Below, piece after piece: positions 1 to 42,210 of a stretch of DNA of 42,466 bases (positions are counted from its first letter, which is position 1; the number at the start of each line of letters is the position of its first letter). A program made the translations under genes and the position numbers. The stretch covers positions 1 to 42,466 of the forward strand of contig PKTH01000025.1 in NCBI GenBank assembly GCA_002869265.1, read 5' to 3'. This DNA is from Candidatus Parcubacteria bacterium (GTDB lineage: Bacteria; Patescibacteriota; Patescibacteriia; Patescibacteriales; BM507). The notes below the pieces were generated by a model. That model was given only the letters and a program-made list of their open reading frames with translations. It was not told the DNA's origin and did not search any database.

Positions 1-192
1 TATCAGTATAGTCGGAATAGTGGCTACTGTTATGTTAATGGTTGGGGGGTTTATATGGTTAACAGCTGGTGGAAGTGGTGAAAAAGTGGGCAAGGCCCGA
101 GATATTATTTTTAGTTCTTTAACTGGCCTTGTGTTAGCTCTAACTTCCTATACAATCCTTAGTGTAATTAACCCCGATTTAGTTAATTTTAA
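1..192 (+). repeat. Direct repeat, copy 1 (pilin helix-hairpin coding segment)
   Basis: Bases 1-192 match 878-1069 with a single difference by eye (A at 100, G at 977). The match ends abruptly at 193/1070, where the cysteine-rich tails begin to diverge. The left end of the repeat is cut by the window edge. Confidence 0.95.
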
Positions 193-622
193 TATTATTG
201 AGCTAAGCAATCCGTTGCCTGGAGCTGCGGGCGAGATTCTCTGTATTGATAGTGATAATGACGGACAAAGAGATGACTGCGCAGATCCAAGCCTTGCCTG
301 TGTTGGTTTTCGATGTGTCGAGTCATCTTCAGTAATAGATCATTCTCAACAAGTTTGTACCTTGGCAGGAAGTGTCTGCCCTCCTCCATGGGAATGTGGT
401 CCTGATGGGTATTGTTTTGTTCCCACACCTCCACCGTCAGAAGCCGCTGCCGCAACCGGTTGCTGCTTAAGCTCATACAATCAACCAACATCGCTTTATT
501 TAGCTTGTTCTGTAACAACCTTTGAGGTGTGCAATACAAAAAGCGATGGATTTTTTTCTATAAACAAAATCTGTGATGAAAAATCTGGACCATTTGGTAG
601 TCAAAAATTCGAATGTAAATAA
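2..622 (+). CDS. TrbC/VirB2-like (T4SS pilin family) membrane protein, 5' end outside window
   Basis: The reading frame is open from base 2, so the start lies left of the window. The visible part begins inside a hydrophobic helix (ISIVGIVATVMLMVGGFIWL), followed by a glycine-rich turn with basic residues (TAGGSGEKVGKARD) and a second helix (LTGLVLALTSYTILSVINP). This two-helix hairpin is typical of the TrbC/VirB2-like pilin family common in Patescibacteria. After it comes an exported-looking tail of about 135 residues with roughly 15 cysteines, an Asp-rich DSDNDGQRDD stretch and a Pro/Ala linker. The gene is the first member of a tandem pair with the next gene; the helices are nearly identical at DNA level while the tails differ. 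The family name is inferred from the helix pattern. A role as a pilus subunit or other membrane component is likely but not shown. Confidence 0.7.
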   Translation: MSIVGIVATVMLMVGGFIWLTAGGSGEKVGKARDIIFSSLTGLVLALTSYTILSVINPDLVNFNIIELSNPLPGAAGEILCIDSDNDGQRDDCADPSLACVGFRCVESSSVIDHSQQVCTLAGSVCPPPWECGPDGYCFVPTPPPSEAAAATGCCLSSYNQPTSLYLACSVTTFEVCNTKSDGFFSINKICDEKSGPFGSQKFECK

Positions 623-668
623 TGATATAATTTAATTACTATAAAATATTAATAAATTAATAAACAAA

Positions 669-1379
669 ATGGTTTCATCCCCTAAATTAATACTAATTAT
701 TATATTCTCTTCTCTCTTCGGTTTTATCGTAAGCCTTAGCTCTGTAGATGCTTCAGATATTAAGTTTTCCCCTCAGGTTACTATCCCGGGGTCCGCCTTT
801 GAAGAGGGAGCCGAGATAGATATTCAAAATGACACAACAGTTCTTGGATTATATTTAAAGGCTATATACACCTATGCTATCAGTATAGTCGGAATAGTGG
901 CTACTGTTATGTTAATGGTTGGGGGGTTTATATGGTTAACAGCTGGTGGAAGTGGTGAAAAAGTGGGCAAGGCCCGGGATATTATTTTTAGTTCTTTAAC
1001 TGGCCTTGTGTTAGCTCTAACTTCCTATACAATCCTTAGTGTAATTAACCCCGATTTAGTTAATTTTAAGATTATAGAACTCAATAAACCGCTGGAGGCT
1101 CCTGGTCAGAAATCCTGCACCGGACCAACTGACTCAAGCTGTGGTGTTGGCTTTGTTTGTTATAATCAAGTATGTGTTGAGGCTAATAAAATTGGATGTT
1201 GTCTTTTTGGTAAAAACTGGCAAGGTGAATGGACTAAATGCACAACAGGTGTAACAAGCACAGGGTGCCAAGATCTAGATAATGTTAGCGATGTGTTTTG
1301 GACACCAAGTCAAACTAAAAAATGTGTAGATGGTGACAATGAACCAGATGACCCTGACTATCAATGTAAAGAAATTTAA
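669..1379 (+). CDS. TrbC/VirB2-like (T4SS pilin family) protein with cysteine-rich tail
   Basis: A complete 236-residue paralogue of the preceding gene. It has an N-terminal signal-type helix (residues about 5-27, ending near VDASD), a short extracytoplasmic stretch, then the two-helix TrbC/VirB2-like hairpin (residues about 66-133) and a cysteine-rich C-terminal tail of about 100 residues (CGVGFVC, IGCCLFG, an Asp-rich end). The ATG at 669 lies in an A/T-rich stretch with no Shine-Dalgarno site. It is 46 bp downstream of the first copy and probably co-transcribed with it. The hairpin DNA is nearly identical to that of the first copy, whereas the tails share only scattered cysteines, so selection or gene conversion seems to act differently on the two halves. 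The tail may be surface-exposed and disulfide-bonded. Confidence 0.75.
   Translation: MVSSPKLILIIIFSSLFGFIVSLSSVDASDIKFSPQVTIPGSAFEEGAEIDIQNDTTVLGLYLKAIYTYAISIVGIVATVMLMVGGFIWLTAGGSGEKVGKARDIIFSSLTGLVLALTSYTILSVINPDLVNFKIIELNKPLEAPGQKSCTGPTDSSCGVGFVCYNQVCVEANKIGCCLFGKNWQGEWTKCTTGVTSTGCQDLDNVSDVFWTPSQTKKCVDGDNEPDDPDYQCKEI
878..1069 (+). repeat. Direct repeat, copy 2 (pilin helix-hairpin coding segment)
   Basis: The second copy of the near-identical segment described for 1-192, at an offset of 877 bp. It encodes the two membrane helices of the complete pilin-like gene. Confidence 0.95.
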
Positions 1380-1383
1380 TAAT

Positions 1384-1593
1384 ATGTTTTCCAAATACTC
1401 AGAACAAAAGTTTGATATCCTAAATAAATATAAAGTTTTTTATACGAAAGAAGAAATTGAGGATGTTGTTAATTCTTCTGATGAAGTAAAAAAAAAGAAT
1501 GAATTTTTTGTGGCGAAGAAAAACAATATAAAAGTTTTATATAAAATAGAGGGCGGGAAGAAAAAAATAATTACTTTCTACCCGGTAAAATAA
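1384..1593 (+). CDS. DUF4258-like small protein (possible toxin of a toxin-antitoxin pair)
   Basis: A 69-residue protein starting at MFSKYSEQK. An upstream ATG at 1330 in the same frame would overlap the pilin gene by 50 bp and is unlikely. The sequence fits the DUF4258 pattern: a helix with YTKEEIEDVV, then two beta strands with basic residues (FFVAKKNNIKVLYKIEG) and a final strand ending TFYPVK. DUF4258 has a RelE/BrnT-like compact fold and is often found beside DUF2283 proteins, as here, where the next gene begins one base after this stop. A toxin role is inferred from that context only. Confidence 0.6.
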   Translation: MFSKYSEQKFDILNKYKVFYTKEEIEDVVNSSDEVKKKNEFFVAKKNNIKVLYKIEGGKKKIITFYPVK

Positions 1594-1594
1594 T

Positions 1595-1828
1595 ATGATT
1601 TACGATGCTGAATCCAATATATTGTGTGTAGAGGTATCAAGTGGTGTTATTGATCACACCATTGAACTTGGAAATTTTATCATTCATGTTTCAAAAACAA
1701 AAAAACCAATTCTAGTCGAGATTCTTGAAGCGAGTAAATTTATTGGCCAGTTCAACAAAAACGAAGATGAGGCTTTGGCAAATTTAAAAAAAGCTTTACC
1801 GGCTAACCTATTTTTAAATAATCATTAG
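1595..1828 (+). CDS. DUF2283 family protein (possible antitoxin partner)
   Basis: A 77-residue protein with the DUF2283 (YuzE-like) signature: IYDAESNILCVEV at the start, a central IDHTIELGNFIIHV, and VEILEASKF near residue 50. The family's usual pattern is YD.E.D.LYI.., followed by ..IDLGNGI.. and ..G.EILDAS, and the match is good over the first 50 residues. The start follows the DUF4258 stop by one base, so the two are surely co-translated. The pair is often seen in cyanobacterial and Patescibacteria genomes and is suspected, without firm biochemical proof known to me, to be a toxin-antitoxin module. The stop codon is TAG. Confidence 0.7.
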   Translation: MIYDAESNILCVEVSSGVIDHTIELGNFIIHVSKTKKPILVEILEASKFIGQFNKNEDEALANLKKALPANLFLNNH

Positions 1829-1917
1829 TAAAATAATAAAAAAGAATTGTGGTTTTAAAATTATAAAAACAACAGTATTCATAATTCTAAATTCATAATT
1901 CATAATTCTAATCAAAT

Positions 1918-2844
1918 ATGTCAAAAACATTAATCAAAAAGAAAAGAGGAAAAAATATAGAAATGCTCAACTCAGGGCATAGAGCTTGCGCTGGTTGTGG
2001 TCAGCTAATTGCAGCCAAGGTTGTCGCTGAAACCCTTGGACCGGACACTATCATTGCCAATGCTACTGGTTGCCTAGAAGTAACAACTACCCCCTACCCT
2101 GAAAGTGCTTGGGGTATGCCTTGGATACATTCGGTTTTTGAAAACGCTGCTGCAGTTGCTTCTGGAATACAAGCCGCTCTTAAGCAACAAGGAAAAGACA
2201 AAAAAATCAAAGTAGTCGCGCAGGGTGGTGATGGTGGAACTTTCGATATTGGTTTTGGTCTTATTAGCGGTATGTGGGAACGAGGAGAAAACATTCTCTA
2301 TGTGGCTTATGATAATGAAGCCTACGCTAATACCGGAATCCAGGCCTCAGGGGCAACCCCTTGGGCAGCGAGCACTACAACCACTCCATCTGGCTCTGGT
2401 AAATCAATAGACGCTATCGGTTCTCATCAACAAAAGAAAGACATGGTTGCTATCGCTCTTGGGCATGGTCTCAAATACGTCGCTCAATCAACAGTGGGCT
2501 ATCTTGAAGACATTAAACAAAAAGTTCAGAAGGCACTTGAGGTAGATGGTCCTGCCTATATTCAAATACTTGTCCCTTGTATTCCAGGATGGAAAACAGA
2601 ACCAAGTAAAACGATAAAAATAGGTAAACTAGCAGCACAAACTGGACTCTACCCCTTACTAGAATATCAAAACGGAGAACTGACTAAGGCGCTAAAGGTT
2701 GGAGAAAAAAATCCAAAAGTAGAAGAATATCTCAAACTCCAAGGAAGATTTGCTCACTTGTTTAAGAATAAGCAAGGCAAAGATCAAATAAAATACATCC
2801 AAGAGCTAGCCAATAAAAACATCGCTAAATACGGATTGAAATAA
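1918..2844 (+). CDS. porB: Pyruvate (2-oxoacid):ferredoxin oxidoreductase, beta subunit
   Basis: A 308-residue TPP-binding subunit that takes part in oxidative decarboxylation of pyruvate to acetyl-CoA with reduction of ferredoxin. Visible signatures are HRACAGCG near residue 21 (Cys24 and Cys27, ligands of the proximal [4Fe-4S] cluster), Cys52 in ATGCLEV, a further Cys in LVPCIPGW, and the TPP/Mg motif GGDGGTFDIG around residue 103. The YDNEAYANTGIQ.S stretch is also diagnostic. The length is normal for PorB. No alpha (PorA), gamma or delta subunit gene is adjacent, so this is an orphan within the window. A strong terminator follows. The start has no Shine-Dalgarno site; the upstream 60 bp contain repeats of CATAATTCTAA. 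Substrate could be another 2-oxoacid. Confidence 0.9.
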   Translation: MSKTLIKKKRGKNIEMLNSGHRACAGCGQLIAAKVVAETLGPDTIIANATGCLEVTTTPYPESAWGMPWIHSVFENAAAVASGIQAALKQQGKDKKIKVVAQGGDGGTFDIGFGLISGMWERGENILYVAYDNEAYANTGIQASGATPWAASTTTTPSGSGKSIDAIGSHQQKKDMVAIALGHGLKYVAQSTVGYLEDIKQKVQKALEVDGPAYIQILVPCIPGWKTEPSKTIKIGKLAAQTGLYPLLEYQNGELTKALKVGEKNPKVEEYLKLQGRFAHLFKNKQGKDQIKYIQELANKNIAKYGLK

Positions 2845-2875
2845 TTAGGCACTTTTGACACAAAACCCCTAGTAC

Positions 2876-2914
2876 AAAACGATGAACAATATCTATGTGT
2901 TCGTCGTTTTTTTT
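2876..2914 (+). terminator. Rho-independent terminator of porB
   Basis: The inverted repeat AAAACGATGAACA (2876-2888) pairs with TGTTCGTCGTTTT (2898-2910), 13 bp with one G-T wobble, around a 9-nt loop, and runs into T's up to 2914. Confidence 0.85.
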
Positions 2915-2921
2915 ACTTAAT

Positions 2922-2949
2922 TTGACAAAATGATAGATTGTGTTATCAT
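2922..2949 (+). promoter_or_regulatory. Sigma70-type promoter for the small gene at 2992
   Basis: A perfect -35 TTGACA (2922-2927), a 16-bp spacer, and -10 TATCAT (2944-2949). It lies 43 bp before the start codon and just after the porB terminator. Confidence 0.75.
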
Positions 2950-2991
2950 GCTCTGTTAGATCATTCACAACAAAAAAAGGAGGACAATAAA

Positions 2992-3234
2992 ATGGTAGGT
3001 ATTGTTGTTAGTAAATCATTATCAAAAAAAGACATTGATCAGCTACTGAGTGTGCTAGAAGAATCTGAAATAGGCAAACTAATCACTGTGAAAATCAGCA
3101 AATCATACATGCCTCCTGTGTGGTTTGCGGACTTAGCAATAGACGAACAAGCCATTTCAGAATTTGAAAACTTAGTAAGATTTGGACCTTTAGGGAATTG
3201 GGAAGATAACCTTCTAAGAGCTAAACACCCTTAA
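2992..3234 (+). CDS. Small conserved-looking protein of unknown function (paralogue A)
   Basis: An 80-residue soluble protein not recognised as any family. The ATG at 2992 is chosen because AAAGGAGGA lies about 8 bases before it; an in-frame upstream ATG at 2938 would sit inside the promoter. The N-terminal part contains SKKDIDQLLSVLEESEIGK, a helix with alternating acidic and leucine residues, then a VKISKS strand, a Trp (VWFADLAID), and a C-terminus with FGPLGNWEDNLLRAKHP. The same arrangement recurs in the 78-residue protein at 3465, although identity is low. It is a single-gene transcription unit with a perfect -35 box, a strong Shine-Dalgarno site and a terminator, so it is probably well expressed. 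Confidence 0.7.
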   Translation: MVGIVVSKSLSKKDIDQLLSVLEESEIGKLITVKISKSYMPPVWFADLAIDEQAISEFENLVRFGPLGNWEDNLLRAKHP

Positions 3235-3242
3235 AGAAAAAT

Positions 3243-3274
3243 AAAGACGTTTACACATTAAACGTCTTTTTTTT
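3243..3274 (+). terminator. Rho-independent terminator
   Basis: AAAGACGTTTA (3243-3253) pairs with TAAACGTCTTT (3259-3269) around a 5-nt loop, 11 bp without mismatch, followed by T's to 3274. It lies 8 bp after the stop codon of the gene at 2992. Confidence 0.92.
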
Positions 3275-3350
3275 GTTTTTCTTCTATAAACCATAAAACT
3301 TGGAATAAATTTATTTACAAATGAATACGATTTGAAGTAAAAATTTTTTA

Positions 3351-3383
3351 TGTCTATACATATGTATAGACACTTGTATAGAC
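3351..3383 (+). promoter_or_regulatory. Palindromic operator candidate with an extra half-site
   Basis: Bases 3351-3372 form a perfect 22-bp palindrome with half-site TGTCTATACAT. The half-site core TGTATAGAC (3363-3371) is repeated directly at 3375-3383, 12 bp further on. The array ends 7 bp before the -35 box of the promoter at 3390. The centre fits the TACANNTGTA motif of CopY/BlaI-type repressors, but that assignment is speculative. In the 3235-3464 stretch this is the main feature besides the terminator and promoter. Confidence 0.7.
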
Positions 3384-3389
3384 TTATTA

Positions 3390-3418
3390 TTGACAAACCG
3401 CAAATAATTATCTAAACT
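3390..3418 (+). promoter_or_regulatory. Sigma70-type promoter for the small gene at 3465
   Basis: A perfect -35 TTGACA (3390-3395), a 17-bp spacer, and -10 TAAACT (3413-3418). It lies immediately downstream of the palindrome at 3351. Confidence 0.7.
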
Positions 3419-3464
3419 AAAATATTGTTCTTTATCAACCCCCCCTCATTTAGGAGATTGAATA

Positions 3465-3701
3465 ATGGGCGAAAACCTAGCACAAACAGAAAAAATCACC
3501 AAGGTAGATTTGATCGAAATCATGGAAATGCTTGAAGAAATCGAAGTTGGCCTGTACGTTGAAATCCGTATTCGGCAGGTCGAGAGAAAACACTGGGTAA
3601 TTGTATTTGGCGTCAAAGACTTTGCAAGAGATTTGTTTCTTGCATCCATCAAAGACGGCATGTTAAGTAAGTGGTCCTCAGTAATAAAAATTCAACATTA
3701 G
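3465..3701 (+). CDS. Small protein of unknown function (paralogue B)
   Basis: A 78-residue protein of no recognised family. It starts at ATG 3465, preceded by TAGGAG at 3451-3456. The segment ITKVDLIEIMEMLEEIEVG lines up with LSKKDIDQLLSVLEESEIG of the gene at 2992. This is followed in both by a charged beta strand (YVEIRIRQ / TVKISKS), a Trp, and a C-terminus with a Trp and a basic residue near the end (LSKWSSVIKIQH / GNWEDNLLRAKHP). I infer distant paralogy from this pattern. Like its neighbour it is monocistronic, with its own promoter and terminator, but it also has a palindromic operator candidate, suggesting regulated expression. Confidence 0.7.
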   Translation: MGENLAQTEKITKVDLIEIMEMLEEIEVGLYVEIRIRQVERKHWVIVFGVKDFARDLFLASIKDGMLSKWSSVIKIQH

Positions 3702-3723
3702 TCCTAGCAGAAATTTTCAACAA

Positions 3724-3753
3724 AAAAACACCCACCAAAGGCGGGTGTTTTTT
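3724..3753. terminator. Bidirectional terminator between small gene B and rpoC
   Basis: AAAAACACCC (3724-3733) pairs with GGGTGTTTTT (3743-3752) around a short partly paired loop. An A-run on the left and T-run on the right allow it to stop transcription from both converging units. Confidence 0.9.
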
Positions 3754-3764
3754 CTATGTGAGAA

Positions 3765-6700
3765 CTAATAAACTTTTCTTTCTTCTCTTGGTTTGTAACC
3801 AGTTCCAGCTGGAATCAATCTACCAATAATAATATTTTCTTTCAAACCTTCTAGATAATCAATCTTTCCACTAACAGCAGCATCAATCAATACTCTAGCG
3901 GTTTCTTGGAATGAAGCAGCTGATAAGAATGAATCTGTAGTTAGAGAAGCCTTGGTTATACCCAGTAACAGTTGATCCACCTTAGCTTGATCTTCTTTTT
4001 TACTTACCTTTAAATTAGCCCTATTAAGGACTGATCTTTCAACTATCTCGCCAGGAAGTAAATCAGTCTTATTCGCATCGTTAATGAAGTATCTAGAGAA
4101 CATCTGTCTAACAATAATCTCAACGTGTTTATCATTTAGGGGCTGTCCCTGAGATGAATAGACTTCTTGAATTTCCTTAATAATATACTTCTGTGTCTCT
4201 AGTCTTCCTCGCAAGGCAAATAGTTTCTGTAAGTGCATACTTCCATCGGTTAGTTGAGCTCCAACATCTACTTTGTCGCCTTCTTTAACTTTTATAGCAG
4301 TTCCTTTTGGAATCACAAACTCTTTAACCTTGTTGGTTTTTCCGCTCACCTTTACATATTTGTCTTTGAGGGTAACCACTCCAGGATTTTCAGCTTTTTG
4401 AGTTTTCTTTCCAACCTTGAATAACTCTTGGCCTTTTTTAACTTTATCTCCATCCTTAACAAGTGTTTTTGCTTTACTTTCCTTATCTTTTTCGTCTGTT
4501 AATTCAGAGAAATAATATTTATCGCTTTCTTCTCCTTTATAGCTTATTTTCAAGATTTTACTCTGACCACTGGCAACAATAACTTTTCCTGCCGGGTCTT
4601 CAATTGTTCTAGTCGCCTCTTCAATTGAAACAGTCCCCTCTACATCAGCTAGCAATGCCTCTTTCTTTGGTGGTCTTGTTTCAAAAATTTCTTCTACACG
4701 AGGTAGACCCTGAGTAATATCGTCTGATCCAGCAACACCACCTGTGTGGAAAGTTCTCATGGTAAGCTGAGTACCAGGCTCACCAATTGATTGAGCCGCA
4801 ATTGTACCAACTGCTACTCCGATTTCAACCGGTTTATTGTATCCAAGGTCATATCCATAACACTTAGCACAGGTTCCTCTGTCGACTTTACAACTTAGAA
4901 CCGATCTAATATTTGCTTCCTCGATCTCTTCATTTGCTATTTCATCAATAGTGTCCTCTGTAATCAGCTCGCCTTTTTTGACCAATACCTTGCCTTTGGC
5001 ATTTTTCAGATCACTAGCTAAGTATCTACCAACAATCCTTTTCTTAATTTCATAATTCATTTCATCACTTTCTTTCTTTGTGATAAGCACACCCTCTTTG
5101 TCTCCACAATCAACGTCGGTTACGATAACATCCTGTGCTACATCTACCAAACGTCTAGTTAGATAACCAGCGTTCGCAGTACGTAGCGCTGTATCTGATA
5201 AACCTTTACGTACACCATGAGTAGAAATAAAGTATTCTAGTACATCGAAACCTCTTTTAAAGTTTCCTCTAACTGGTAGCTCGATAATATCACCGGAAGG
5301 AGAAGTCACAAGACCTTTCATTCCTAGAATTTGAGTTAACTGCGCCCATGAACCACGAGCACCAGATTCAATCATAGAATATACCGGCCCATCTGTTGGT
5401 AGATCCCTCTTACAAATATTTGTTACGTGTTCCTTAGTATTTGTCCAGATCTCAATAACTTTTGAATATCTTTCAGAATTTGTTAGAAGACCATCGTCAT
5501 ACTGTTCTTGAATTTTCTCAACCTCTTCACCGGCTTGTTTAATCAAATTATCTTTTTCTTCAAAGTAAGGTAGATCATCCATTCCCCAAGAAAGACCAGA
5601 TTTTGTAATAAAGCCAAAACTTAGAGATTTTAATTCATCAACCAATTTAACTGTTCTCTCCTCTCCATAAAAACGAAGACAATCTTTAATAACGTTTCTT
5701 AAGCCACCTTTACCAACAACTTCATTAACAAAACGAAGTTTTTCAGGAATAATATTATTATACATTACTCTTCCGGCAGTGGTTACAAGCACTCCCTTGT
5801 CTGAGGTTCTTACTTTTATTGGAGCATGAAGAGTGATAGCTTTTGAGTTGTAAGCTAGTTCAACTTCCATTTCGTTCGCAAAATATTTTAAGGCCTTTTC
5901 ATCAATCTCACCCTCATCCATTTGTGTTAGATAAAAAGCTCCCCACACAATATCTTGACCAGGGGCTACAATCGGATCTCCAGTTGCTGGTTTTAATAAG
6001 TTGTGAGATGAAAGCATGATATCTCTAGCTTCCTCTTTGGCTTCTTTGGTAAGTGGTACATGAACAGCCATTTGGTCACCGTCAAAGTCAGCGTTAAAAG
6101 CTGAGCAAACTAGTGGATGAATCTGAATAGCCTTACCTTCAATCAATGTTGGCTTGAAAGCTTGGATACCAAGTCTGTGCAAGGTAGGAGCACGATTTAG
6201 AAGCACAAAAGCATCTTTAGTGATATTTTCGAGGATATCATAGACTTCGTTGTGCCCAGCATCTATGTATCTTGAAGCAGATCTAACATTATGAACAATC
6301 TCTTCTTTAATCAATTTTGATATTACATATGGCTTGAAAAGCTCAAGAGCCATAATTTTTGGAAGACCACATTGATATAGTTTTAGTTTTGGATTAACCA
6401 CAATAACTGAACGACCAGAATAGTCGATTCTTTTACCTAGAAGGTTTTGTCTGAATCTACCCTGCTTACCTTTTAATGAGTCTGCCAAAGACTTCAATTG
6501 TCTTTTTTGCCCCGTTGAAGCTGTAACTGTTTTACTGGCTCTTGAAGAGTTGTCAATCAAGGCGTCAACTGCCTCTTGAAGCATCCTCTTTTCATTTCTA
6601 CAAATAACTTCTGGTGCATTTAACTCTATTAATTGTTTTAAACGATTATTTCTATTAATCACTCTTCTATATAGATCATTCAAATCTGAAGTAGCAAATC

Positions 6701-7694
6701 TACCACCATCCAAAGCAACCATCGGTCTTAGATCAGGAGGAATAACTGGAATTTGTTCCATAACCATCCATTCAGGTTTTACGTTGTTCGCCTCCAAACT
6801 CTTAATTAGCTTTAACCTTCTCATCAACTTTTCTTTTTTTGAATCAATAGCAGTCTCAAGTTGAGTCGCTATTAGTTTTCCTGTCTTTTTCAAATCGATC
6901 CTAGACAAAAGCTCTCTTACGGCCTCAGCTCCAATACCTGCTTCAAAAATGTGTCCGTATTTCAAACTTAAATTCTGATATGAATTTTCAGAGATGATTA
7001 AAAGAGGTTTTAATTCTTTAAGTTCTTTTTGAGCTTGATCAAAAGCGTCGTTTAAGCTCTCAAACTTTTCTTCTTTTACTTTGGTCAATGAATCAATTTC
7101 CTTTTCTATTTCGTTTTCAATAGCTGCTTTCTCATCTCCATCCTGCGCGTCCTTCTTTTTATTTTTTATTTCAGTAATCTGTTTGCTAAACTCGCTCTCG
7201 ATTGATTTCTTCTTTGATTTGAATTCTTGCTTAATCTGATCAATAGTTGCATTTTTTAAATCTTCATTTACATCAGTAATAATGAAACTAGCAAAATAAA
7301 CAACCTTCTCAAGTGCTCCCATTGATATATCTAGAATTAAACCGATCTTGGAAGAAATACCTCTTAAGAACCAAATATGAGTTGCTGGAGATTGCAGTGT
7401 AATATGTCCCATTCTTTCACGTCTAACAATACTTCTGGTTACCTCTACACCACACTTATCACAAACAATACCCTTATATCTAATTTTCTTATACTTTCCA
7501 CAATAACATTCCCAGTCCTTTGAAGGACCAAAAATCTTTTCACAGAACAAACCGTCTTTTTCAGGTTTTTGTGTTCTGTAGTTAATAGTCTCCGGTCTAA
7601 TAATCTCTCCATGAGACCAGTCCAGAATATCTTCTGGTGATGCTAATTTTAATTTGATTGCATCAAAATCTGTTGTTTTGATTGGATTTATCAT
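3765..7694 (-). CDS. rpoC: DNA-directed RNA polymerase, beta' subunit
   Basis: 1309 residues, about the size expected for a bacterial beta' without large lineage insertions. The catalytic Mg-binding loop [12 protein letters not shown] lies near residue 533. The N-terminal zinc site is CYC..C..C (Cys63, 65, 78, 81), and the second zinc site is the [11 protein letters not shown] region near residue 940. A Lys/Glu-rich coiled coil (residues about 150-235) replaces the usual clamp segment. The trigger-loop region ([20 protein letters not shown]) is present. The start ATG at 7694 gives the standard [14 protein letters not shown] beginning. It follows rpoB with a 27-bp gap and ends 12 bp before a bidirectional terminator, so rpoB-rpoC is one transcription unit. 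The frame is fully open, unlike rpoB. Confidence 0.98.
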
Positions 7695-7721
7695 ATATGT
7701 GAAGTCAATTTATTAATTATA

Positions 7722-10700
7722 TTATTTATCTGTCTCTTCTTTCGTCTCCTCTTTCACTTCTTCCACTTCTGCTTCTTTTACTTCGGCTTTTTCTTCTGTT
7801 TCTTTTCCTTCTTGACCCTCTTCTGCTTCTTCGCCCTCTTCACTGCCTCCAAGCAACTCAACATCTAGACCAAGACCTTTTAACTCTCTAACCAAAACGT
7901 TGAAAGACTCTGGAACATTCATCTTGCTAATCGGCTCACCCTTAATAATTGATTCATAAGCTTTTGATCTTCCAGGAACATCATCTGATTTAATTGTTAG
8001 AATCTCTTGTAAGAGGTGGGAAGTACCATAAGCTTGCAATGCCCAGACTTCCATTTCTCCAAATCTTTGTCCACCAAATTGTGCTTTACCACCTAAAGGT
8101 TGTTGAGTGATTAATGAGTATGGACCAATTGAACGTTGGTGAATTTTATCTTCAACCATGTGGTTAAGTTTAAGCATGTACTTATAGCCAACTGTCACCT
8201 TGTGATCATATTTGTCTCCAGTCTTTCCATCATAGAGCACAGATTTTCCATCTTCTGGTAGGCCTGCTTTTCTAAGTTCTTCTTTTATTTGGTCCTCTGA
8301 GATTCCATCAAGAGCTGGGGTTGCAATTTTATAACCCAACTTCTTAGCAGCGAAGCCAAGGTGGGTTTCAAGAATTTGACCAAGGTTCATACGAGAAACA
8401 ATACCCAAAGGAGATAAAATAACATCCACTGGAGTTCCATCTTGCAAGAAAGGCATGTCCTCAGTAGCAACAATCTTTGAAATAACACCTTTATTACCAT
8501 GTCTTCCACTCATTTTGTCACCGACTTGAATTTTTCTTAAATTTGCAACTGAAATTTGAATTGACTGTAAAACTCCTGCTGACAACCTATCGCCATCTTC
8601 TCTAGAAAATATTTTTACATCGACAACCTTACCGTGTTCACCATGCTCTAGATATAGTGATGAGTCACGAACATCTTTAGCCTTTTCCCCAAAAATTGCT
8701 CTAAGAAGTTTTTCTTCAGCTGACAATTCAGTCTCACCTTTTGGAGTGATTTTTCCGACCAAAATATCACCAGAAGATACCTCAGCACCAATTCTAATAA
8801 TTCCCTCTTCACTTAAGTCTTTTAGTTTTTCTTCAGAAATATTTGGTATGTCATTTGTAACTACTTCCGGCCCAAGTTTTGTATCACGAACATCGATTGT
8901 GTAGTTCTCAATATGAATAGAAGAATAAACATCTCCACTAACCATTCTTTCAGAAATAATAATAGCATCCTCATAGTTGAATCCTTCCCAGGTCATAAAC
9001 GCCACAAGAACGTTTTTACCCAAGGCTAACTCACCATTATCAATAGCTGGACCGTCTGTCATTGGCTGTCCTCTTTTAACCTTGTCACCGACATTTACTA
9101 TTGGTCTCTGGTTGATACAAGTAGAAGCATTAGATCTTAAAAACTTAGTTAGATCGTATTTCTCAGCGCCACTATTTTTACCTTTCACTTCGATATTTAG
9201 TCCATCAACTTTTGTAACCTCTCCATCCTCTTTAGAAAGAATAATGTGCCCAGAATCATGAGCAGCAAGAGCTTCAGCTCCGGTTCCTACCAAAGGAGAA
9301 TCAGCGATTACAAGAGGAACTGCCTGACGTTGCATGTTTGTTCCCATCAGAGCACGTTGTCCATCATTGTGTTCCATGAATGGGACCAATGAAGTTGCAA
9401 TAGAAATAATCTGATTAGCAGCAATTCCAATATAATCAATTTTATTTACATCAACTGTTCCTGGCTGACCATATTTTCTAGCCTCAAATTTAGAAACTAA
9501 AAATCCACCCTCATCACTTACCGGAATTGTTGAAGTAGCTGTAATATATTTTTCCTCTTCAAAAGCATCCATATAAACAGTTTCTTCGGTAACAACTGGA
9601 ACGATTGGAATTAATTCCTCTCCAGTTTTCCCGACGATTGCTTTTGCACTCTTAGCATCAATGGTCTCACCAGCTTTTATTAATACCTTTCCCTCTTTGC
9701 CGTTGTCTTTTACCTCTACAATGTCTTCTCGAGCAATTTTGCCTGTAGTCAATTTTGGGTCGTTCTCTATATCATGAAGCACCTTCTTAAATGGTGTCTC
9801 CAAAAAGCCATATTTATTTAAAATAGAGTAGCTAGCTAAGTGGCCGACCAAACCGATATTTGGACCCTCCGGTGTTGCAATCGGACAAATTCTTCCGTAG
9901 TGAGTTGAGTGTACATCACGAACATCAAAGCCTGCTCTTTCACGAGTTAAACCTCCGGGACCAAGAGCTGACAATCTTCTTTTGTGCTCAAGTTCAGCCA
10001 AAGGATTTGTTTGGTCCATAAACTGAGACAACTGAGATGACATGAAAAATTCCTTCACAACTGAGATTAAAGGTCTGGCGTTAACTAATTTGTTTGGAGT
10101 TAAGGTTCCAATCTCGTGAGTACTCATCCTATCTTTAATGATTCTCTCCATACGAGCCAAACCAACTCTAAATTTATTTTGGATCAATTCACCAATAGCC
10201 CTAACTCTTCTGTTACCAAGGTGGTCGATATCGTCTTCAACCCCCTTACCGTTATTTAAATCAATTACACCCTTGATTGTTTCAATAAGGTCTTCTCTTC
10301 TTAAAATTCTTGTTTCTTTATTGTTAGGAATATCAAAACCAAATTTTCTATTTAATTTATATCTTCCAACTCTATCAAAATCATATCTATCAAATCTGAA
10401 AAACATTGAATGAATCAACTGTTTAGCATTTTCAGTGGTTGCTAGATCTCCTGGCCTAATTCTCTTATAAACTTCTTTTAATCCTTCTGCTTAATTCTTT
10501 GAAATATCTTTTGCGATTGTTGCATCAATGTGATTTAAGCTATCTTCAGTAGAATCATTTTCAATCCCTTTAAATATATCTTTAATCTCTTCATCTTCAC
10601 TGAAACCAAAAGCTCTTAGCAGAGCGGTTACAGGGACTTTTCTTTTTCTATCGATTCTTACCCAGATAACTTTGTTAATATCTGTTTCAATCTCTAACCA

Positions 10701-11210
10701 AGCACCTCTGTTTGGAATAATCTTTGCTCCAAATGTTTTTTTACCTCTGTTAAACTCTGAAGTGAAAATAACGCCCGAGCTTCTAATTAGCTGTGACACT
10801 ACTACCCTTTCAATGCCATTAACGATAAATGTGCCGTTTTCTGTCATTAGAGGAAAGTCACCCAAGAAAACCTCTTGAGTTGATGACTCGTTTGTTCTCT
10901 TATTCTCTAGCTTTACTTTTACTCTTAGCGGTGCTTCAAAGGTTAGATTCTTTGCTCTACACTCAACTTCTGTAAACTTTGGTTCGTCTAGAAAATATTC
11001 CTTAAATGATAACTCCAAATCTCTTCCAATAAAATCTGTAATAGGAGAAACTTCATCAAATAAATCTGCAAGACCTTCTTCGATAAACCAATTAAACGAA
11101 TTTTTTTGAACTTCAATCAAACTAACATTATCAATTGGTTTGTAGTTTTCTTTGAAATACTTCCTGTTTCCAATAAATGTTTCATTGGATGTTTGTACTT
11201 GTTTTGACAT
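7722..11210 (-). pseudogene. rpoB: RNA polymerase beta subunit gene interrupted by one in-frame TAA
   Basis: Read through, the gene has 1162 codons, a normal size for beta. Codons 1-239 (MSKQVQTSNE...) encode the protrusion and start of the lobe and end at TAA 10493-10491. The frame continues without shift: [19 protein letters not shown] follows directly, exactly the sequence expected after this point in other beta subunits, then [18 protein letters not shown]. The C-terminal portion has the rifampicin region ([28 protein letters not shown]), the catalytic core and the [16 protein letters not shown] clamp end. About 40 Glu-rich residues form an unusual acidic tail. The start at 11210 is preferred; a GTG 14 codons upstream would add residues unlike the family. 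After the stop, the first possible restart is TTG at 10418. Labelled pseudogene only because the frame is broken; it may be an assembly error or a functional recoded gene. Confidence 0.85.
10491..10493 (-). other. rpoB: In-frame TAA stop inside rpoB (codon 240)
   Basis: The minus strand reads GAT ATT TCA AAG AAT TAA GCA GAA GGA. Both flanks are conserved beta-subunit sequence in the same frame. One base change from GAA, CAA or AAA would give TAA; Glu or Gln would suit the position. Confidence 0.95.
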
Positions 11211-11524
11211 AAAAACTTGTTCGTGCAACAGACTAATAATAGTGGCCACCACGCTAATGCCGGCTTTTCTTGTCCACGAAATATATTAAATTTTCTTTAA
11301 ACAACAAAAAATCTCAATCCAAATTAGGCTTGAGTTATTTTGGGTCGTTAAGAATTTAATCTTAACGAATTATCAACTTTAAATTTTACTAAAAAAATAT
11401 TTATTCACGCTTCTAGAAGTAAAATGACACTTTTTTAGAGCGCACGAGGATTTTGAAAAAAAGATAAAAACAATTAAAAATTGTTTTTATACGCTATTTT
11501 GTTTTTGAAATATTTTTTATTTGT
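11211..11524 (-). promoter_or_regulatory. Long rpoBC leader with three hairpins, two terminator-like
   Basis: The gene-free stretch 11211-11655 holds the rpoBC promoter and about 310 nt of leader. Hairpin 1 is a perfect 10-bp stem (11466-11475 with 11479-11488), followed on the minus strand by ATCTTTTTTTC. Hairpin 2 is an 8-bp stem, CGTTAAGA (11346-11353) with TCTTAACG (11360-11367). Hairpin 3 is CTCAA with TTGAG (11313-11334) plus two inner C-G pairs, followed by a run of six T's (11306-11311). Hairpins 1 and 3 look like intrinsic terminators inside the leader, suggesting attenuation. The last 70 nt before the start contain GC-richer sequence with the palindrome GTGGCCAC. No leader ORF or known RNA family was recognised. 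Confidence 0.5.
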
Positions 11525-11530
11525 TACTAA

Positions 11531-11559
11531 ATAATAACAAAGTGGCCTTATAATGTCAA
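11531..11559 (-). promoter_or_regulatory. Sigma70-type promoter of rpoBC
   Basis: On the minus strand, a perfect -35 TTGACA (11559-11554), a 17-bp spacer and -10 TATTAT (11536-11531). It lies about 97 bp after the upstream ligase gene and about 320 bp before the rpoB start. Confidence 0.8.
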
Positions 11560-11655
11560 GTATTTCTAGACACAAAAGACCTCTAGAATTTTTACCTAAT
11601 ACTAGTCAAAAAGTATTTTCCTGTTAAAATATCTCTCTTCTTATCAACAGGGTTA

Positions 11656-13068
11656 TTATTTGTTTATATTTTCTGAAAGAAGACCTCTGACAACCGCCCT
11701 ATCATCCCATGACTCTTTTTCTCCATTTCTCCTCACTATCGCCTGCTCACTACCCTTTCCGGTTATTAACAGTATATCATTTTCACTACATAATTCCAAA
11801 GCTTTTTTTATAGCTTCTCTTCTATCTAGAATTTTAAAAATATTTTCATTTTCAACCTTACCTGCTTTTTCCGCTCCAACAAAAACTTGATCAATTATTA
11901 TTTCTGGATCATCATCATACGGGTCCTCGTCTGTAACCACAACATAGTCTGCTCTATCTCCAGCCAACTTACCAAGAACTGGTCTTCTTGCCTCATCTCT
12001 TCCTCCTCCGGCAGAACCTAGAACATGTATTATTTTTTCATGAGGAATTAAAGCTACTGTCTCGTATAGTTTTTCTACTGCCCTTGGTTCAAAAGCATAA
12101 TCGACAATTACTGTAAAATTCTGGCCAGCCTCTATTCTCTCAAGTCTGCCTGCAACCCCCTCTATAGAGAGTAGGGCCTTCTTTATCTTCTCTACATCAA
12201 GACCAAGCGTTTTAGCAACAAAATAAGCATTCAATGAATTCTTTACATTAATAGCTCCCAGTAAGCTTAGTTTTATTTCGTTTTCATCAACTGTATATGA
12301 TGTACCATCCTTAGCTATTGAAATGTCTCTATATTCTGAAACATCTATTTCTTTTAGGGCCTTGCCGTCAATTTTAACATTAGCAATATCTCCGGTGTAG
12401 CCTATCTTTTTCTCAGCCCAATGAGACATAAAATATTCAATATGTTCATCTTCTAAATCACCGATAATGGTTTTCTTTACCTTATTAAGTTCTGTTTTCT
12501 TAATTCCACTGTCAGTACGAACCACTTCAAACTCTTCGTTTATATATTTTTCTTTGCAATTCTTTAGATGTTTAAAAAGACTACCTTTAGCTTCTTTATA
12601 GTTTTCAAAACTCCCGTGCGACTCTATGTGCTCGGGGTAGAGGCCGGTTATAAGCAGAATATCGTAATTTATAAATTTGTGCCTAAATTGCCTAATGCCC
12701 TCCGAAGATGTCTCAACTATTGCCACCCGGCATTTGTTTTTTAGCATTCTCGCAAGCATTCTTTGGGTAAAAAATCTTCCCAACATTGTCATTTTTTTGT
12801 CGTTTAGCCATTCACGCTTTCCGTCATTAAACATCGCTGTTGAGGTATATCCTGTTTTTAGTCCAGCCTCTTCCAAAACCTTAGCCATTAAATAAACGCT
12901 GGTTGTTTTCCCTGTGGTTCCTGTTACGCCAACGACTATTAATTTTTCTGATGGCTTTCCATAAAGAATAGATGAAACAAGACTAAAAATATAGTGATAA
13001 GCTGGTTGCAAAGCCAAAAACATTTTATGGGGAATTATTTTTTTTATAATTTGAAACAATTTATTCAT
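11656..13068 (-). CDS. murE: MurE-type Mur ligase (UDP-MurNAc-tripeptide synthetase)
   Basis: A 470-residue ATP-dependent ligase of the Mur family, adding the third amino acid to the peptidoglycan stem peptide. The P-loop GTTGKTT is at residues 50-56. The ETSSEGIRQFRH stretch supplies the central-domain motif, LLGAINVKNSLNA the Asn-containing motif, and GSAGGGRDEARRPVLG the C-terminal-domain entry. The substrate-specificity loop reads DEDPYDDDP. Meso-DAP enzymes have DNPR and Gram-positive lysine enzymes have DNPxxDDP, so a diamino acid other than meso-DAP is suggested. The N-terminal about 40 residues are amphipathic and short compared with E. coli MurE. The gene starts 8 bp after a FemAB-type ligase gene that could build a cross-bridge on the same stem. 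Start at ATG 13068. Confidence 0.85.
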   Translation of the reverse strand: MNKLFQIIKKIIPHKMFLALQPAYHYIFSLVSSILYGKPSEKLIVVGVTGTTGKTTSVYLMAKVLEEAGLKTGYTSTAMFNDGKREWLNDKKMTMLGRFFTQRMLARMLKNKCRVAIVETSSEGIRQFRHKFINYDILLITGLYPEHIESHGSFENYKEAKGSLFKHLKNCKEKYINEEFEVVRTDSGIKKTELNKVKKTIIGDLEDEHIEYFMSHWAEKKIGYTGDIANVKIDGKALKEIDVSEYRDISIAKDGTSYTVDENEIKLSLLGAINVKNSLNAYFVAKTLGLDVEKIKKALLSIEGVAGRLERIEAGQNFTVIVDYAFEPRAVEKLYETVALIPHEKIIHVLGSAGGGRDEARRPVLGKLAGDRADYVVVTDEDPYDDDPEIIIDQVFVGAEKAGKVENENIFKILDRREAIKKALELCSENDILLITGKGSEQAIVRRNGEKESWDDRAVVRGLLSENINK

Positions 13069-32606: not shown

Positions 32607-33899
32607 CTACTTTTTAGCTTTTGTGAATAGTTTTTTTGTTCGCAACTCCCGGTGGTATTTTATTGCAAAACGATGAGCCTCATCCCTCACTCTTTTAATA
32701 AGATGAAGCGCGGGAGAACTCAGTGAAAGCTCTAAAGGCTTTTTCTCTCCAGGGAAAAATATCTTATCAGGAGCCTGAGCTGACCTTAGCCCTGCCCCCT
32801 TAGAAATAGCGATGAGCGGAATATCTAATTTATTTTTCTTAAGCAACTTACTAACTACATTCAGCTGCCCCTTGCCTCCATCAAGAATCATCAAGTCAGG
32901 TAAGGGCCAAGCCTTCTCGCCATCAACACTTCTTGCCAGACGTCTTTCCATCACTTCTTTTATCATGCCAACATCCCCGTCTTTCTCACTTACTTTTATT
33001 TTAAATTTTCTGTATTAACTTTTGTTTTCCTCCCCTTCTTCAAAGACAACCATAGAACCAACAGCCTCCGCCCCAAAGATATTTGAGATATCATAGCCTT
33101 CTATTCTTCTGGGGGTTTTGGGAAGAGACATAACTTTAGCCAATTCTATTACATCTGTTGCGTACTTATCTACCAGCCCAAGAATATTTGTGTGCTCCAA
33201 AACATTTTGCATGTGTTTTATATAAAAATCAATCTTTTTAGCCTCCTCTATGTCACCTGCTTTTTCAAATTGTTTTTTTTCTTTGATAAGATTTTTTACA
33301 ATTCTCTCTTTTTTCCCTTCAAAAAATAAAGTAATAGGCTTGATAACTTTTTTTATGTACTCATTTCTATCAACCAGGCCACCACAAACCCCCACACATC
33401 TGTTTATTTGATAATAAAAACATGGCTTCTTTTGCAATTTCTTTTCATTGCAGTAAGGCCAAATCTTTCGAATAGCTTTTAGGGTTTCTTTGACAGCTTG
33501 AGCGCTTACGAAGGGACCAAAGTATTTCCCAGATTTCCCAATTGTCCTGGTAGTGAAAATCCCCGGTATTTCATCTTCAGTTGAAATACACACATACAAA
33601 AAACGTTTATCATCTCGAAGCATTACATTGAACTGTGGTTGATGTTTCTTTACTAGATTCGACTCAAGTAACAGGGCCTCTATTTCAGAATCTGTTTCTA
33701 TCCAGTCGATACCACAAATGTTTTTCATCATAGCATGTTTATCCGGAGAGTGATTGGTGCTTTTCTGCCAATAAGAAAGAACTCTACTCCGCAGATCGGC
33801 CGCTTTACCTATATATATTATCTTGCCGGCTTTATCCAAAAACTGATAAGAACCTGGCTTCTTTGGTATATTTTTGTTTTTTACGTCTTCAATATTCAT
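32607..33899 (-). pseudogene. uvrC: Excinuclease ABC subunit C gene interrupted by one in-frame TAA
   Basis: Read through, 430 codons. The GIY-YIG nuclease domain is at the N-terminus (KPGSYQFLDKAGKIIYIGKA...), with the Cys-rich segment typical of UvrC (KPCFYYQINRCVGVC) near residue 160 and a UVR-like helix (KEKKQFEKAGDIEEAKKIDF) near 215. The RNase H-like domain opens with GYDISNIFGAEAVGSMVVF. TAA at 33017-33015 (codon 295) comes right after GEENKS. The same frame continues YRKFKIKVSEKDGDVG, exactly where UvrC usually reads [E/D]YR.[FY].I, then the catalytic ILDGGKGQL and RVRDEAHRFAI. The tandem helix-hairpin-helix C-terminus of longer UvrC proteins is absent. Restart at ATG 32966 would give only a C-terminal fragment. 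Whether the stop is real or a sequence error is unknown. Confidence 0.85.
33015..33017 (-). other. uvrC: In-frame TAA stop inside uvrC (codon 295)
   Basis: The minus strand reads GAA AAC AAA AGT TAA TAC AGA AAA TTT. In homologues the residue before YRKFKIK is usually Glu or Asp, so GAA to TAA is the simplest change. Confidence 0.95.
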
Positions 33900-41038: not shown

Positions 41039-42139
41039 CTACATCCAAGCTTCTATTGCATGAACTTGGTCTTGTTTCTTTGTTCCTTTGGCTGCAACTT
41101 TTTTATCAAACTTTGTAAGCATCGCTTCTGTGGTATCTACCGAGACACAACCATCGGTCACAGAAACTCCGTACTCGAGCACTTTTTTTTCTTTTGTCGG
41201 AGGCTTTTGTTTACCAGCTTTAATGTTACTTTCAATCATGACGGAAGTAATAGAATCGTTCCCTTCTTCAATTTGGTCTCCAACATCATTGAGAACATTA
41301 ACTTGAATTTCAGGATTTCCTAAACAATTCTTATGACTACAGTCGACCATCAAAGAAAGAGGAAAGCCATTTTCTTTTAGCTGTTTCTCTACCTTGGCAA
41401 TTGAATCACGATCATTGTTCGGCTTATCCTTCCCGCCCCGCAAAACAACATGAAGATCAGGATTTCCAAACGTAGTAACCGTTGATAATTCTCCATAGGC
41501 ATTCAGGCCAAGAAATGAGTGTCCAGTCCTTGATGTCTTTATAGCGTCAATCGCCACCTGAAGGTCACCATCGGTCGCATTTTTAAACCCAACTGGAAAA
41601 GAAAGACCACTAGCTACTTCACGATGAGTTTGTGACTCTGTAGTCCGGGCGCCAATTGCCCCCCAAGAAATATAATCTGAATAAAATTGAGGAGTCATCG
41701 GATCAAGAACTTCACTAGCGATAGGAATACGTAGCTTTGTAATATCAGAGAAAAGCTTTCTGGCGATACCAAGTCCTTTACTGATGTTGCAGGAACCGTC
41801 CATATCAGGATCATTAACGAGTCCTTTCCAGCCAATGTTCGTTCTTGGTTTTTCAAAATACACTCGCATCACCAGGAAAAGGTGAGGCAGATTCTCCTGC
41901 ATCTTTACCAAACGCTTAGCGTAGTCCAAAGCCGCTACCGGATCATGAATTGAACAGGGACCTACTACCACCATAACTCGCTGATCTTCTTTGTAAATAA
42001 TTTTCCGTATTGTTTCCCTTGATTGATTGATAAATGCCGCATCGCTATCAGATAAAACGATCCTTTTTCTGAGACTCATGGGTGTTTCAATTGGTTCGAT
42101 GCTCTCGATGTGCTTATTGCTTGTTGTCATATTAACCAT
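41039..42139 (-). CDS. aroG: 3-deoxy-D-arabino-heptulosonate-7-phosphate (DAHP) synthase, AroF/G/H type
   Basis: 366 residues. It condenses phosphoenolpyruvate and erythrose-4-phosphate, the first step of aromatic amino-acid synthesis. Conserved type I-alpha sequence: VGPCSIHDPVAA with metal ligand Cys62, RVYFEKPRT (Arg/Lys substrate contacts at 97-100), WGAIGARTTESQTHREVASGL, PVGFKNATDGD and HVVLRGGKDKPN. The sequence resembles E. coli AroG over most of the length. The start at 42139 is chosen because AAAGGAGGA lies 7 bases upstream; an in-frame ATG 14 codons earlier would be inside the leader. The stop is TAG. No other aromatic-pathway gene is nearby. Given the paired leader, lateral acquisition as a unit is possible. 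The symbol is by type; aroF or aroH would be equally fitting. Confidence 0.93.
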   Translation of the reverse strand: MVNMTTSNKHIESIEPIETPMSLRKRIVLSDSDAAFINQSRETIRKIIYKEDQRVMVVVGPCSIHDPVAALDYAKRLVKMQENLPHLFLVMRVYFEKPRTNIGWKGLVNDPDMDGSCNISKGLGIARKLFSDITKLRIPIASEVLDPMTPQFYSDYISWGAIGARTTESQTHREVASGLSFPVGFKNATDGDLQVAIDAIKTSRTGHSFLGLNAYGELSTVTTFGNPDLHVVLRGGKDKPNNDRDSIAKVEKQLKENGFPLSLMVDCSHKNCLGNPEIQVNVLNDVGDQIEEGNDSITSVMIESNIKAGKQKPPTKEKKVLEYGVSVTDGCVSVDTTEAMLTKFDKKVAAKGTKKQDQVHAIEAWM

Positions 42140-42210
42140 AGTGTATCCTCCTTTGGGTGAATGGTCAAAAGTTAAAAGCACTATTGCTTATAGATAAATT
42201 ATAAAGAACG

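Follow-up and report, generated by a model that had tools for sequence, protein, structure and literature searches.

Two neighbouring orphan genes in a Patescibacteriales genome and a recurring operator-like palindrome shared with an AbrB/MazE-like gene

Two small genes lie side by side between a TPP-enzyme gene and the opposite-strand rpoC in a Candidatus Parcubacteria bacterium, and the locus raises the question of what these genes are, whether they are related and what might control them. To our knowledge, little is known of how genes are regulated in such bacteria, which have small genomes and are mostly uncultured. The DNA analysed, here called the window, is the whole of contig 32 (42,466 nucleotides) of a 1.27 Mb genome distributed over 49 contigs. 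The original prediction, made from the letters of the window, was that the pair forms an undescribed small-protein family under independent control and carries unusually strong expression signals.

Two single-gene units and their expression signals

Gene 1 and gene 2 each form a single-gene unit downstream of the TPP-enzyme gene, which matches PF02775 and ends at 2844 (Table 1). Scored by the window's own codon usage, the annotated frames gave values of 0.195 (gene 1) and 0.147 (gene 2) and the five other frames negative values; both are genuine coding genes. The TTGACA hexamer predicted as the -35 element of both genes was present in each case, and is rarer in the window than in Markov sequences (16 occurrences against 29.5 ± 5.4 expected). 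The promoters are indeed strong but not unusually so, as an equally good site (11/12) was found in the region before rpoB at 11559 on the minus strand and positions 1–12000 contain no more promoter-like sites (36) than shuffled sequences do (36.5); promoter strength alone is therefore weak evidence. Shine-Dalgarno sequences were found 8 nt upstream of both start codons (AAGGAGG for gene 1 and AGGAG for gene 2), and their predicted rarity elsewhere in the window held, with a sequence of comparable strength at only one of 31 other genes scored (AAGGAGG, at the gene at 41039–42181), a count in which the start codons of the two rpoB pieces and of the 41039–42181 gene were mis-set. The good terminators expected after both genes were also found, that of gene 2 being common with rpoC. 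Separate promoters and terminators agree with the independent control proposed originally, and an operator-like palindrome is present at gene 2 only.

Table 1. Features of the region between the TPP-enzyme gene and rpoC (positions in the window)
Feature	Position	Strand	Evidence or match
Hairpin resembling a terminator, following the TPP-enzyme (PFOR-beta-like) gene	2876–2910	+	Inverted repeat I4, then T-run
Gene 1 promoter-like site, TTGACA-16-TATCAT, TG before second hexamer	2922–2949	+	11/12 match
Gene 1, 80-aa orphan protein, start ATG 2992	2992–3234	+	
Gene 1 terminator-like hairpin, then T-run	3243–3269	+	
Perfect 22-bp palindrome, putative operator	3351–3372	.	Inverted-repeat scan and genome recurrence
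Third half-site TGTATAGAC, direct repeat 12 bp from second half, gene-proximal	3375–3383	+	
Gene 2 alternative promoter, TAGACT-18-AATAAT, overlapping third half-site	3379–3408	+	
Gene 2 promoter-like site, TTGACA-17-TAAACT	3390–3418	+	10/12 match
Gene 2, 78-aa orphan protein, start ATG 3465	3465–3701	+	
Bidirectional terminator common to gene 2 and convergent rpoC	3723–3753	.	Inverted-repeat scan

Elsewhere in the window, rpoB (7722–11252, minus strand) is interrupted by stops that divide it into ORFs of 898 and 253 aa; the gene may be split, carry an insertion or contain a frameshift introduced in assembly. A gene at 32607–33899 on the minus strand, which we take to be uvrC-like, is likewise divided, perhaps by a frameshift, into ORFs of 294 and 119 aa. 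Two T4SS-pilin-like genes stand in tandem at 20–1379 on the plus strand, almost the same in DNA sequence over the membrane portion but with cysteine-rich tails that differ; in the part read of a sister species there is one such gene.

Relatedness, distribution and predicted folds of the two proteins

A sequence pattern common to the 80- and 78-residue proteins had been proposed and was borne out. The proteins are 21% identical across 73 columns, their Smith-Waterman score of 64 was reached in none of 5000 composition-keeping shuffles (26 ± 4.7), and in a genome-wide search (E up to 10 for gene 1 and up to 0.1 for gene 2), where the tool's initial pass filters candidates, the sole non-self match of each was the other. 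Two-sequence BLASTP with composition adjustment, however, gave only E 0.64, so that the case for relatedness depends on the position of the genes side by side, on their reciprocal matching and on the codon pattern, aligned codons being identical at positions 1, 2 and 3 in 28, 39 and 22 of 77 cases. Two unrelated genes encoding short charged helix-strand-strand-helix proteins could share such a pattern by chance, and the low identity and BLASTP value would fit this, as would the very common occurrence of ferredoxin-like arrangements and structural matches that stay below Z 8 (see below). We consider this unlikely, given the result of the composition-preserving shuffles, the finding by each gene of its neighbour as sole other match across a whole genome and the greatest conservation being at second codon positions. 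The similarity is weak but credible, and its features suggest that the two genes are probably paralogues.

Structure prediction, which had been proposed as a check on this relationship, was carried out by AlphaFold2 with two-row alignments and gave mean pLDDT values of 80.1 for gene 1 and 92.6 for gene 2 (pTM 0.79 for the latter). Both predictions have the same ferredoxin-like order of elements, beta-alpha-beta-beta-alpha, and are not independent, the other gene being the sole aligned row of each. The best matches among solved structures were of the ferredoxin-like class with Z scores of 7.3 and 7.1, below the value of 8 that would be telling and, at about 7, subject to the tool's warning that a match may reflect only a common arrangement. 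The best Foldseek E values were 0.04–0.06, and matches to viral structures were all weak. The predicted order is that of small ferredoxin-like proteins of the ACT, PII and CutA type, to which no sequence relation was found. A working guess, from the fold class alone, is that both may be small soluble ligand- or partner-binding proteins.

No credible relative of either gene was detected in the order (111 genomes, the one sister species among them) or in a sample of 379 genomes of the phylum. Besides the window genes, seven matches in the order (E 0.0026–0.0735) were rejected, five lying inside frames of more than 290 aa and two containing internal stops, as was a single match in the phylum (E 0.007) that spans 29 positions of a 1325-aa frame. 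Searches of IMG/VR and of PDB sequences and two GTDB genome-contig scans gave no convincing relative, and the sole matches in phage records were to an RNA phage polymerase at E 8. Pfam scores were below cut-off (13 and 14.8 bits against 27), PHROGs matches reached E about 0.02 at best, NCBIfam and PADLOC gave no match, and nothing in Rfam matched across 2800–3800. In the sister species (G001) the order pilin, 70-aa ORF, DUF2283-like ORF, TPP enzyme, rpoC is kept, with a comparably long gap (about 925 bp). This gap contains neither gene 1, gene 2 nor alignable DNA beyond a terminator, and therefore the pair was gained in the window species or lost in the sister species. As far as searched, the genes appear to represent a species-level, two-member orphan pair rather than a widespread family. 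The proposed family is accordingly undescribed, in that no curated family matches above cut-off, but was not found beyond this genome, and the notion of a wider family was not upheld by the searches of the order, phylum sample, IMG/VR and GTDB, in which no homologues were found. Among open-licence PMC papers, none was found that combines orphan genes and small proteins with the candidate phyla radiation.

A palindrome recurring before scattered genes

The region upstream of gene 2 contains a perfect palindrome followed by a third half-site, together spanning 3351–3383, an element missed in the earlier reading of the sequence. It is located upstream of the -35 hexamer, with 81 bp between its end and the gene 2 start codon; the corresponding distances at the AbrB-like gene and the VF530 gene described below are shorter. 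Upstream of gene 1 there is no comparable element, the best palindrome having 6-bp arms. Exactly three copies of the 20-bp core are present in the genome, at gene 2, on contig 27 (C27) and on contig 37 (C37:131810), and a fourth copy (C37:67047) differs at two positions from the core and at one under the N4 pattern; a reversed-pattern control gave no match in the genome. The C27 core is 18 bp before the ATG of a solitary 55-aa AbrB/MazE-like gene, with the third half-site 6 bp before it, and the C37:131810 core is 31 bp before the ATG of a VF530-family gene (114.8 bits against a cut-off of 27), with the third half-site 19 bp before it. The C37:67047 copy is situated between convergent gene ends and has no evident target. 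Beside this copy, three consecutive small or mid-size ORFs without a Pfam match were observed (L027, 2807–3982). In the order, GTCTATAC-N4-GTATAGAC was found in this genus only (2 of 111 genomes). The sister species has two exact sites, with the core 16 bp before a gene that is presumably prfB in one case and 30 bp before an unassigned gene in the other.

Such an element might be a small dispersed repeat of a mobile or attachment type with no operator function. There are few exact copies, some directly following stop codons (C27 and C37:67047), and the genes beside the sites differ between the two species, as would be expected of a dispersed repeat. This reading is nevertheless quite improbable in our estimation, as only the half-sites are conserved and the centre varies in the sister species, every site seen is intergenic, and in four of five three-part sites the third half-site lies towards an adjacent gene start. 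An operator is the preferred interpretation of the palindrome. Its centre, TACATATGTA, resembles the cop/mec box; a binder of the BlaI/MecI/CopY type was rejected, as the only product of a Penicillinase_R search of this genome was a sub-threshold match with an internal stop, and the sister species gave no match. Among the open-licence PMC papers listed for TGTATAGACA, none was by its title on this subject.

AbrB-like genes, their palindromes and a candidate binder

The 55-aa protein encoded on C27 matches PF04014 (AbrB/MazE; 32.8 bits against a cut-off of 24.7) and is below cut-off for NCBIfam antitoxin models (28.7 bits against 55.9 for TIGR02609, and lower for VapB models). Its gene has neighbours that we take to be argS-like and leuA-like but no toxin neighbour, and no same-strand ORF of at least 40 aa starts within 150 bp downstream. 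A palindrome directly before the gene's own start codon is a property of autoregulated antitoxins. The C27 protein is like the swapped-hairpin regulators of PF04014 in consisting of an AbrB/MazE domain of 55 aa with a palindrome before its own start, but differs from PF04014-type antitoxins in being solitary, with no toxin-like partner seen. With respect to PF04014 regulators, the paralogues here each own a palindrome, and that of C27 recurs before unrelated genes.

The first six AbrB-like genes read, from two species, had palindromic or repeated elements upstream, for the most part different in sequence. Using a profile built from six sequences, we searched 109 genomes of the order and identified AbrB-like genes at 55 places in 20 genomes, and 53 of these had sufficient upstream DNA for a palindrome survey. 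A palindrome score of at least 9 within 100 bp upstream was obtained for 39 of the 53 but for only 6 of 57 control genes at the same loci (Mann-Whitney p 1e-12, related loci being non-independent); the remaining 14 scored below 9. The palindrome ended 4–25 bp before the start codon in 34 of the 39. At one locus (L048) the palindrome counted is an automatic AT-rich pick, and TGTTACGTAGCATGTTACGTAACA-like repeats are also present upstream. Palindrome similarity was correlated with protein similarity in 37 usable genes (Mantel r 0.59, not reached in 2000 permutations, related loci again being non-independent), and the correlation persisted when only pairs with a protein similarity under 0.7 were taken (630 of 666; r 0.39, 0 of 2000 permutations). 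The group of proteins beginning RKLKNNNIRK has the palindrome GTATACATT...AATGTATAC, whilst the group with LEERNIRK or LEKRNIRR has ACAGAGTT...CTCTGT. This association across the order supports the existence of cognate protein-operator pairs, although it remains a correlation. The genes that come after the AbrB-like genes are of many kinds, and several of them begin only a few bases away; inspection revealed no recurring toxin-like partner among them.

Some genomes of the order contain strongly amplified sets of AbrB-like genes; one of these genomes (G049) has 12 in 1.2 Mb (L055, L088, L091 and others), including two nearly identical copies on one contig that share one palindrome. At three loci (L083, L078 and L087, in G053, G052 and G051, respectively) a short ORF whose product begins MWHIYIL, and which we take to be GIY-YIG-like, directly abuts the downstream end of the AbrB-like gene (0 bp between them).

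Because AbrB-like genes and palindromes look like cognate pairs across the order, the C27 protein is most likely the binder of the gene 2 operator, a prime candidate on correlative grounds. The operator could instead be bound by another protein, of LexA, XRE or ribbon-helix-helix type or the VF530 protein itself, the AbrB-like gene being just one target among several. The VF530 gene, of an annotated DNA-binding family, has an identical site, an array of three half-sites spaced 12 bp apart would also be compatible with other small proteins that bind cooperatively, and among the eight AbrB-like genes of the sister species none was seen carrying the GTCTATAC-N4-GTATAGAC palindrome, though sites are present there. 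We nonetheless judge another binder to be somewhat unlikely, as private palindromes at AbrB-like gene starts are general in the order and track the protein subgroup, and no recognised SOS gene lies beside the four sites in this genome. LexA/SOS operators are likewise palindromes common to a small set of scattered genes, and differ in having SOS genes beside them; the damage network of Patescibacteria has reportedly been compared in a study that is cited in PMC8565304.

Open-licence PMC papers yielded none combining AbrB with Patescibacteria, none on AbrB, the candidate phyla radiation and transcription, none on AbrB-like proteins, operators and CPR bacteria, and none on SpoVT-AbrB, palindromes and autoregulation; for MazE, Patescibacteria and antitoxin there was a single paper, on marine biofilm viruses, and for Patescibacteria, transcription factors, binding motifs and palindromes there were two, PMC8565304 among them.

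A rather probable account, and in our view the best explanation, is that of a tandem-duplicate pair of which gene 2 is under the operator of the C27 AbrB-like autoregulator. The two genes would be an ancient tandem duplicate encoding one small soluble protein of ferredoxin-like fold, now transcribed separately and, as far as searched, confined to this species. Gene 1 would retain a plain sigma-70-type promoter, whilst gene 2 would have been captured by an operator of three half-sites, an inverted pair and a gene-proximal direct repeat with 12-bp spacing. The likeliest binder, the C27 AbrB/MazE-like protein, has the identical operator before its own start codon and would presumably repress itself, and the VF530-family gene, preceded by the same operator, would belong to the same small regulon. 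Relative to the putative transcription start of gene 2 the bound stretch would fall at roughly -46 to -63, and binding there would most likely cause repression, either by covering an overlapping promoter or by hindering polymerase, with activation as the alternative. Repression is less obvious here than at the AbrB-like gene because the site is upstream of the -35 hexamer and 81 bp from the ATG.

More generally, the solitary AbrB/MazE-fold proteins of about 50–65 aa in this order may be mutually insulated switches, each with its own palindromic operator at the start codon, that would have co-diverged with these operators and captured unrelated genes, gene 2 among them; we regard the case for this as evenly balanced. 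If each small AbrB-like protein does have a private palindrome, natural pairs could reveal the protein-DNA recognition code, and the regulons of uncultured genomes could become predictable from sequence alone. The proteins of genes 1 and 2 would then offer a first handle on the output of one such regulon.
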